Source: Natronobacterium gregoryi SP2 (GTDB lineage Archaea; Halobacteriota; Halobacteria; Halobacteriales; Natrialbaceae). Taken from it: a DNA stretch of 64,000 nucleotides. Under the pieces are notes generated by a model. It searched no databases. It was given only the letters and a program-made list of their open reading frames with translations, and was not told where the DNA came from. The translations under genes were made by a program, and so were the position numbers. The stretch covers positions 2,666,001 to 2,730,000 of the forward strand of contig NC_019792.1 of assembly GCF_000230715.2 (NCBI RefSeq). The letters run 5' to 3'. Positions 19,639 through 48,888 of this stretch are shown in pieces. Position 1 is the stretch's first letter; every line of letters begins with the position of its first letter.

Positions 19639-19727
19639 CTAGTGGCGGGCCAAGCCTGCACTGATGGGTCGAATCTGGCGGTGTGGCCCGATTCGACCCG
19701 TCAGTCGACGGTTGGGACGGTACTAGT
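19639..19727. repeat. 79-bp hairpin element (MITE-C) copy 1 with CTAGT flanks
   Basis: The body 19644-19722 (79 bp) is identical at 77 of 79 positions to the copy at 40817-40895. The centre is an inverted repeat, CTGATGGGTCGAATC against GATTCGACCCGTCAG, one mismatch, around a 13-14 base loop. CTAGT flanks both ends (19639-19643, 19723-19727), read as a 4-5-bp target duplication. Confidence 0.75.
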
Positions 19728-39000: not shown

Positions 39001-40315
39001 GGAGACGTCGGTCGTCGACGCGGGCAACGACGACCCGCCGACGATCGACGTCACATTCGGCTACGAGAACCCCAACGACGCGAGCGTCTTCGTCGGAACG
39101 GAACTCGAGGGGACGACCGCCGACGAACCGACCGACGAACTCGAACCCGGCGACAACGCGTTCACCGTCGAGTGGACGCCCGAGACCGACGACGAGCGAC
39201 TCGCCTGGATCGTCGACATGACGATCTACGACTACGACGAGGTGCTCACGGCCGAGACCGCTCTCGCCGGCGACATCGTCGCCGTCCCCGAGGAACCCGC
39301 GACGTTCCTGATCGACGACGTAACGACGAACTCGCCCGTTCAGCAGGGAGAAGAACTCGAGGTCGATGCGGCCATTACGAACGTCGGCGACGAGGCTGGG
39401 ACACAAGACGTGGAACTGTCGCTCGACGGCGAAGCCGACTCGAGCACGCTCGATCTCGAAGCCGACGAGTCGACGACAACGTCGCTGTCGGTAGCGACCG
39501 ACGATTTCGAGTCTGGCGAGTCCACTGCGACGATTTCGACCGCCAACGACAGTGTCGACACACCGGTAACAGTCGAGGAGCCGGAAGAGCCTGCGACGTT
39601 CCTGATCGACGACATAACGACGAACTCGCCCGTTCAGCAGGGAGAAGAACTCGAGGTCGACGCGACGATAACCAACGTGGGCGAGGAGACCGGCATGCAG
39701 GACGTGGCACTGGCGATCGACGGCGAGCTGGTCGACGACGCCGAACTGACGCTCGAGCCCGACGAGTCGGGGACGGTTGCGCTGACGACAGCGACCGACG
39801 GCCTCGAGCCCGGCGAGTACGATATGACGGTCTCGACCGACGACGACACCGTGGCGGGAACCGCGATCGTCGACACACCAGCCACCGACGACGGCGTCGA
39901 AACCGGCACAGAGCCCGAAGCGCCCGACGACGGCGTCGAAACCGGCACAGAGCCCGAAGCGCCCGACGACGGCGTCGAAACCGGCACAGAGCCCGAAGCG
40001 CCCGACGACGGCGTCGAAACCGGCACAGAGCCCGAAGCACTAGACGACGGCACCGAGATACCGGGGCCGGGCGAGAACGGTGCGGATGGGACGGACACGG
40101 GAACCGAAACTGGCGACGACACCGGCGCGGTAGGAGCGAATTCCATCGAACGAGAGTCTGAACAACCCGAAACCGGAGACGATTCGGAGGCAACCGATGA
40201 ATCGGTCGGCCCAGAGGCCGAACCGGCACAGACAGAATTAAGCGACGACGGCCCACAGATCAAGGCCGACTCGACGGCCACCCACTCGCTCGAGACGGCA
40301 GCGGGGGTAGTGTAG
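36077..40315 (+). CDS. Giant secreted repeat protein (Q-rich VEQIQ repeats, DUF7282-like and CARDB-like domains)
   Basis: A 1412-residue acidic protein. Signal peptide about 1-37. Residues about 95-525 hold some 14-17 imperfect units of roughly 22-30 residues alternating a strand-like VTVEQIQ with a small-residue AAxGAAxGAL. Residues about 535-650 resemble DUF7282 (FGDQESEGDAVTIDAVDLSEGGFVAIYDD). Two related beta units follow (about 655-850), a Cys-containing region, then two near-identical CARDB-like units (about 1073-1260) whose DNA is 70 of 72 identical at 39299 and 39593. A 4 x 13-residue linker (1271-1322) and a Glu/Ser-rich tail end the protein. No PGF-CTERM, lipobox or C-terminal helix is present, so it is predicted secreted or surface-bound by another route. 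Confidence 0.8.
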   Translation: MRRLRPRAREISVTVTIVFVVTSVVALPLLGGGLVGASEDATVDDSISGGQVGEMTGDGLELLSFESTDAAAIQLQADREETVEAGVDEGIDLAEQQGVEVTDEQREAALEGASEFVPEHEGADDDQVQEATKGAVHGSLVATQEANVTAIQYAVGGAVDGALAQHATVEATQLQRAAKGAAYGAIAQEQRVTVEQIQVATRGGAAGAASEAGERGFENGTEIEEAANGASYGVLEQYQTITVEQRQQVTLEHVQHAATGASAGAIEGVTTDQELEVEGEQSQRADVKQVQKAATGAAKGALVHRQTVTVEQTQSAAWGASAGALKGIQSVTVEQVQQVTITGLQEASFGAATGAIEQSQEATVEQIQAAADGGAHGVLVQQQEVTVTQKQYAAAGAAKGAVESAIQYQVVEIEQIQSAAFGAGEGAVTQQQLVDVTQIQQLARGSADGALSQHQEATVEQIQAGATSASQETARAVQYQRISVTQLQTLTADLAANATAYAVDEGIDDVVEVTQYVEIEIGQRIEEIDELEGEATIVFGDQESEGDAVTIDAVDLSEGGFVAIYDDLAVDADPEAVLGSSAYLEPGAYDDVTVELEASLEESQPLTAVVHHDTTGDETFQYVETDGQEDEPYVSEGGAPILDSAFVTVDEEPAPAPDGTLEVSDQVGDGETLTVEAANASVEYTVSAEYDDERVDSEPFDADTGVENLDLALEPPIEDDTTVDVSVRDAEDDATLASETIEYELEDDPGPVPEAELEVADQRGDGESVTVAEANATVDYAVTVAQEDADDRLVETEPFPAGEGVENESIDLVDPLEDDATLEVSVLDAGDGETLAIDTLEYTLDEEFEVEFVDCTRAEVTDSLEDGDTVAASTGFYTAGGFGNTIAEDFVTIGEDVDAPFTGTIVFEVGDGEGVVEADEEEVVVDVGDYGDYGTTITGISSPEAFPFASIDHPHPEAEACLEETRPELPSISVEETSVVDAGNDDPPTIDVTFGYENPNDASVFVGTELEGTTADEPTDELEPGDNAFTVEWTPETDDERLAWIVDMTIYDYDEVLTAETALAGDIVAVPEEPATFLIDDVTTNSPVQQGEELEVDAAITNVGDEAGTQDVELSLDGEADSSTLDLEADESTTTSLSVATDDFESGESTATISTANDSVDTPVTVEEPEEPATFLIDDITTNSPVQQGEELEVDATITNVGEETGMQDVALAIDGELVDDAELTLEPDESGTVALTTATDGLEPGEYDMTVSTDDDTVAGTAIVDTPATDDGVETGTEPEAPDDGVETGTEPEAPDDGVETGTEPEAPDDGVETGTEPEALDDGTEIPGPGENGADGTDTGTETGDDTGAVGANSIERESEQPETGDDSEATDESVGPEAEPAQTELSDDGPQIKADSTATHSLETAAGVV
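39887..40042 (+). repeat. Four tandem 39-bp units encoding DDGVETGTEPEAP
   Basis: The units are at 39887, 39926, 39965 and 40004. The first three are identical and the fourth differs only near its end. They are contiguous without spacers and in frame, so they encode a flexible linker, and copy number is expected to vary between strains. Confidence 0.9.
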
Positions 40316-40750: not shown

Positions 40751-40917
40751 TCATACGGCTTATGTCGTCACTTCCCGGCGATCGCCAGAACGGGCCGGCG
40801 ATCGGCGAGAACTAGTGGCGGGCCAAGCCTGAACTGATGGGTCGAATCTGGCGGTGTGGCTCGATTCGACCCGTCAGTCGACGGTTGGGACGGTACTAGT
40901 TCCAGCAATCCGTATCA
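40751..40917. repeat. MITE-B copy 1, interrupted by the 79-bp hairpin element
   Basis: Termini at 40754 (TACGGCTTATGTCG) and 40914 (CCAGCAATCCGTA), flanked by TCA on both sides. Without the inserted element it is about 77-78 bp and aligns throughout with the uninterrupted copy at 48792-48870 (CCGGCGATCGCCAG... ...CGGCGATCGGCGAGAACTAGT). It shares ends with MITE-A but has a different core. Confidence 0.75.
40812..40900. repeat. 79-bp hairpin element (MITE-C) copy 2, nested in MITE-B
   Basis: Body 40817-40895, 77 of 79 identical to 19644-19722. CTAGT stands on both sides. The other MITE-B copy has a single uninterrupted AACTAGTT here, which is the empty target site. So this copy was inserted at CTAG after MITE-B had arrived. 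Confidence 0.82.
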
Positions 40918-48720: not shown

Positions 48721-48888
48721 TCGTACGGACTGCTGTACCGACCTACCGGCGCGACCGCAGGAGGGCTCGTGGTTGCGCCGGAAATGACTTATACGGTTTG
48801 CTGTATTCAATTACCGCCGATCGCTGACCCCGTTCTGGCAATCGGCAGTAACTAGTTACAGCAATCCGTATTACAGCAAACCGTATCA
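48721..48888. repeat. MITE-A copy 7, interrupted by MITE-B
   Basis: Outer ends at 48724 (TACGGACTGCTGTACC) and 48885 (CAGCAAACCGTA). Right flank TCA; left flank TCG, one base changed. Removing the nested element and one TTA leaves exactly 80 bp, the size of other copies. Confidence 0.8.
48789..48873. repeat. MITE-B copy 2, nested in MITE-A
   Basis: Body 48792-48870 (79 bp), TACGGTTTGCTGTATTC... to ...TTACAGCAATCCGTA, with TTA on both sides as target duplication. It contains the intact AACTAGTT that is the empty target of the hairpin element in the 40.8-kb copy. Confidence 0.82.

Follow-up and report, generated by a model that had tools for sequence, protein, structure and literature searches.

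REP and BIME sequences are linked to RAYT transposases of the Y1 HUH type, and some members of the IS5 family typically produce a 4-bp duplication of CTAG. In IS630 and ISY100, TA alone is duplicated (PMC2170065), and for the IS630 family a title by Tenzen and Ohtsubo (1991), cited in the same source, names CTAG as the preferred target. For haloarchaea, MITEs of Haloquadratum walsbyi have been described that are mobile even where the genome carries no functional transposase, as well as small mobile repeats (SMR) of Haloquadratum, 80-110 bp long with inverted ends, which tend to enter other mobile elements (PMC3119063).

A sequence-only reading of 64,000 nucleotides from Natronobacterium gregoryi SP2 (contig NC_019792.1, positions 2,666,001 to 2,730,000; this whole stretch is called the window) had described a 79-bp hairpin element within a copy of the repeat MITE-B. 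Its interpretation as a whole was partly supported by the present analysis. The element is very probably a very short non-autonomous MITE, which would be moved in trans by a haloarchaeal IS630-family transposase cutting at CTAG or CTNAG and duplicating the whole site of 4-5 bp. The observations are ends that autonomous elements also carry, a CTAG context that is strict, target sites known in the empty state, amplification to about 200 copies in a burst, and chains in which one CTAG is shared. The element is unusual in its target duplication of 4-5 bp, in the size of a burst that has no resident transposase, in its self-targeting chains and in the maintenance of its palindrome. An earlier description of the hairpin element was not found in the literature searched; ISfinder and most subscription papers were outside its scope, and the partner IS may already be named.

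The hairpin element and its target in MITE-B

Table 1. Features of the hairpin element, its host and related copies in the window
Feature	Position	Strand	Basis or remark
MITE-B copy, interrupted by hairpin element	40751..40917	+	MITE-B body 40754-40914; aligns with uninterrupted MITE-B copies
TCA duplications of this MITE-B copy	40751-40753 and 40915-40917		
CTAG, left target duplication	40812..40815	.	direct reading; MITE-B copies with empty site
Type-A hairpin MITE, 80 bp, ends TGGCGGGCCAAGCC / TACCGTCCCAACCG	40816..40895	+	fold, copies, end match to autonomous IS630-family elements
16-bp stem, 5' arm	40833..40848	+	fold and covariation
14-nt loop	40849..40862	.	inverted in elements of other genomes
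16-bp stem, 3' arm	40863..40878	+	fold and covariation
CTAG, right target duplication	40896..40899	.	direct reading
Second type-A element	19643..19722	+	CTAG at 19639-19642 and 19723-19726
MITE-B copy, empty target AACTAGTT	48791..48871	+	CTAG 48852-48855; AACTAGTT at 48850-48857

The element had been placed between CTAGT flanks. CTAG is indeed present on both sides, but the element comprises 80 bp, the T at 40816 belonging to it. A CTAG-type duplication is evident from the flanks and from empty MITE-B sites; the duplicated unit, however, is best read as 4 bp and not as CTAGT, with the fifth base (T) as part of the element. The net gain at the filled MITE-B site is 84 bp, the 80-bp insert plus CTAG (40812-40899). 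The uninterrupted site proposed for the other MITE-B copy was recovered with a single CTAG, and the unlinked second hairpin copy likewise proved to be flanked by CTAG, with two differences to the first over 89 nt including the flanks (98%). CTAG is rare in the window, as had been assumed, with 44 occurrences versus 98 expected. The fold of the type-A strand lies far outside those of shuffled sequences (DNA fold, z = -6.5).

At the insertion position, 20 uninterrupted MITE-B loci contain CTAG (14 loci), ATAG (five) or ACAG (one). A second filled copy, L077, carries the same element in the same AACTAGTT; two filled MITE-B copies, compared with 14 empty ones, thus document a target duplication with an empty site. 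The mobility claimed for this very small element is supported, as are the CTAG target with its duplication and the empty site.

In L103 (starting at 1505849 of the N. gregoryi genome), a MITE that has MITE-B-like ends, TACGGATTACTG...CAGTAAACCGTA, and TCA on both sides interrupts a type-A element; the two families thus nest in both directions. At least three of 20 MITE-B copies (L269, L271, L275) have an interior in inverted orientation with respect to their ends. Just upstream of the interrupted MITE-B copy, near-identical tandem 39-bp repeats in codon register are located (window 39841-40074).

Copy number and distribution

The 79-mer is present in the N. gregoryi genome (3,788,356 bp, one contig) in at least 14 exact copies, and at least 41 copies have 97-100% identity, with 40 of 166 candidates scored. 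A degenerate pattern of the ends gave 446 matches in this genome versus four for the reversed control, and 28 at most in any one of 60 relatives. With a pattern for the whole element, at least 196 complete elements were detected versus none for the reversed control. The next highest genome has 35, and the burst of about 200 copies is equalled by no other searched genome of the family. Across the family, 25 of the 125 genomes and 13 of the 29 genera contain complete elements. The flank inspection suggested earlier, performed on the sampled copies, showed the CTAG context to be strict in N. gregoryi with few exceptions of unequal flanks.

From a sample of 282 kb in 98 segments of the genome, mostly element-bearing, 166 elements were extracted and divided into types A (81), B (48) and C (37). 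Types A and B are 80 bp and type C is 102 bp long, plus 4 bp of target each. On average, copies of types A and B are 97% identical to their consensus, and the 12 clear 108-nt copies of type C are 95% identical. The elements are short (80 bp), non-coding, bounded by terminal inverted repeats and present in multiple copies (196 complete elements), as expected for MITEs.

Palindromic structure

An alignment of 51 distinct 86-nt elements from several genera (A1) was used to analyse the stem. Pairing was found in 93% of the cells, and 130 cells were changed on both sides compared with a mean of 44 after shuffling (0 of 500 as high) and 3-16 for slid structures. The covariation of the arms is strong, but it is not a probability, since related sequences inflate such counts. 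Between elements of one genome, 14-nt loops were also found in inverted form. In the pair L161/L163, the loops are exactly inverted and the other 72 positions are identical; in L185/L186 and L189/L190, the loops are inverted at 13 of 14 positions. An inverted match of 12 of 14 was reached by shuffled loops in none of 10,000 trials. Among 129 A and B elements of N. gregoryi, no loop inversion was detected, and the arm-rewriting process would therefore be slow, since these young copies show no flips.

Arm-to-arm template switching, in which one arm would be copied onto the other and the loop sometimes inverted, may keep the palindrome intact. It could explain the compensatory arms together with the flipped loops and would make a function of the hairpin unnecessary. 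Covarying arms and exactly inverted loops resemble a natural record of palindrome template switching in an archaeon, and they are a warning that stem covariation need not imply a functional RNA. Alternatively, the hairpin may be under selection. It appears rather unlikely that the hairpin is needed for mobility or copying, with a folded strand or cruciform as the working intermediate, the arms rewritten and the loops inverted under selection, and each insertion building an improved ACTAGT landing site so that arrays would be self-growing.

Autonomous elements with matching ends

The search for an IS with matching ends, which the sequence-only reading had proposed, was successful in other genera. 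In G020, a genome of another genus, the same ends are located 1,215 bp apart and enclose two ORFs of 150 and 210 aa, which match Pfam HTH_32 and DDE_3 and an NCBIfam IS630 equivalog. The scores of the partner transposase, 132.8 bits for NF033545 (cut-off 100) and 96.9 bits for PF13358 (DDE_3; cut-off 28.6), identify it as an IS630/DDE_3 transposase. These ends, with CTAG on both sides, were found in the autonomous copies L129/L110, L130, L135 and L218. Of 24 positions compared between the type-A right end and the 5' end of the autonomous element, 22 agree, among them the first 18 without exception; for type C, 20 of 24 agree. Similarity is lower for the left ends of types A and B (14-16 of 24). 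The MITEs thus have ends in common with an autonomous transposon whose known copies reside in other genera. In L110 (1270-2401), the IS630-type transposase is encoded in two frames, of 150 and 210 aa, which frameshifting may join; some relatives have a longer open frame.

Homologues of the partner transposase are present in 37 of 125 family genomes. Their distribution tracks that of the MITE: 14 of 25 genomes with the MITE contain a homologue versus 23 of 100 without it (p = 0.003). In the N. gregoryi genome no match to the partner lineage was obtained, while the same query gave matches in the congeners G001 and G002; the driver in N. gregoryi itself is therefore a presumed one. The IS630 copies of this genome (19 DDE_3 matches) have no matching ends within their loci except for L041 and L045, where these ends belong to separate small elements. 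L045 was considered as a parent copy and rejected, because another IS630 element, of the group of L031, is inserted into a type-C element there (L045, 1386-1700).

From these comparisons, the 80-bp element is most likely mobilised by an IS630-family transposase; it is not claimed to be itself a member of the IS630 family. The partner is placed in this family because of its transposase and not because of its target duplication.

Length of the target duplication

The length of the duplication in N. gregoryi had to be deduced from relatives, because CTAG is palindromic and nearly invariant there. The flanks in this genome alone cannot separate TA from CTAG, and duplication of TA only within a strict CTAG, with the inner G and C belonging to the element, would follow the known mechanism of IS630 and ISY100 (PMC2170065). 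Relatives of the partner argue against this reading. L131, L132 and L136, which fall into the same end-type group and have transposases 86-90% identical to the reference, are flanked by CTCAG/CTCAG, CTGAG/CTGAG and CTCAG/CTCAG, respectively, which requires that at least TNA is duplicated. A sister group shows non-palindromic 4-bp duplications, ATAG/ATAG in L211 and CTAT/CTAT in L212, which require all 4 bp, and 5-bp sites such as CTAAG and CTCAA occur in further sister-group elements (L143-L148). With CTCAG, CTGAG, ATAG and CTAT duplicated in its relatives, the partner departs from the 2-bp TA duplication of IS630, and movement with TA alone duplicated is improbable. Since CTNAG, ATAG and CTAT are duplicated in autonomous relatives, the whole site of 4-5 bp appears to be duplicated, and in the close autonomous relatives the duplication can be 5 bp, CTNAG.

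Unequal flanks were seen at two positions in N. gregoryi, CTAG with CTGAG at 257311 and CTAAG with CTGAG at 3034289, and also in a relative, L134. Such deviations are few in the N. gregoryi genome and compatible with mutation.

Chains of elements and gene context

The arrangement in the window had been described as third-level nesting. Nesting is real, but it was understated: to lie next to an earlier copy is usual for an insertion, as chains of 2-4 elements joined via one shared CTAG make up 59 of the 92 sampled sites. This share may be somewhat overestimated because sites were found via elements, partly by their number per region. Seventy-four of the 166 elements (45%) abut another one, whereas a rough manual estimate, based on a background of 40 CTAGs per 64 kb, predicts about 10-16% of insertions beside an element. 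The shared CTAG is always preceded by A and followed by T, both contributed by element ends. At the outer sides of element sites, 47% of CTAGs are preceded by A; in the background the share is 25% (p = 0.002, with counts obtained by rounding the frequencies). A preference for ACTAGT, selective removal of insertions elsewhere and recombination between copies could all contribute to the excess of chains. Of 25 chains made up of one A and one B element, 11 are arranged as A+B+ or the reverse of this, versus about six expected; the A-B pair may move as one unit.

The sampled sites are almost all intergenic. As judged by a codon score trained on the window with crude gene calls, one of 84 element sites lies in a coding-like frame, compared to 17 of 39 CTAGs in the background and 248 of 400 positions chosen at random. 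This intergenic position, together with the covarying stem, the fixed length and the chains in alternating orientation, would also suit a functional REP/BIME-like repeat kept by selection as a terminator, mRNA 3' end or protein-binding site. The clean empty sites with target duplications and the ends common to an IS are at odds with such a repeat. Neighbouring genes are convergent in 19, divergent in 14 and tandem in 35 cases, an unremarkable ratio of about 1:1:2 without the convergent excess that terminators would give. A functional repeat that is not a transposon is accordingly quite improbable, and gene orientation around the sites gave no signal for a role as terminator or for promoter avoidance.

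An IS5-family (YTAR) transposase, as favoured in the sequence-only reading, is very improbable: a 4-bp CTAG duplication fits part of that family, but the autonomous elements found with matching ends encode IS630-family transposases, and close relatives have 5-bp CTNAG duplications.

Mobilisation by an IS630-family transposase is thus the preferred explanation. The 80-bp element would move by cut-and-paste, with the transposase supplied by an element now lost from, or located outside, the N. gregoryi chromosome. Each insertion would leave two fresh CTAGs, whose inner base (A before, T after) fits a presumably preferred ACTAGT, and chains would probably grow for this reason.

Comparison with known systems

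The element clearly exemplifies how a transposon hardly longer than its two ends together has multiplied to about 200 copies in one species. REP/BIME sequences are similar as short intergenic palindromes of high copy number that form chains in both orientations, but the hairpin element has target duplications, and its ends are those of a DDE transposon and not of a RAYT. With the SMR of Haloquadratum it has size, inverted ends and insertion into mobile elements in common; SMR were reported without target duplication (PMC3119063), whereas the hairpin element has one, and this separation is based on the published description of SMR. The MITEs of Haloquadratum walsbyi are likewise short transposase-free repeats with inverted ends; the elements described here differ by their 80 bp, about 200 copies, an IS630-type partner in other genera, and chains. 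Likeness to the IS630 family (IS630-Tc1-mariner, with IS630 and ISY100) lies in the transposase family of the partner and in CTAG as the target. An IS630-type lineage with a duplication of 4 or 5 bp bears on the evolution of strand-transfer spacing in the IS630-Tc1-mariner group: IS630 and ISY100 duplicate TA alone, whereas the haloarchaeal elements appear to duplicate the whole CTAG or CTNAG.
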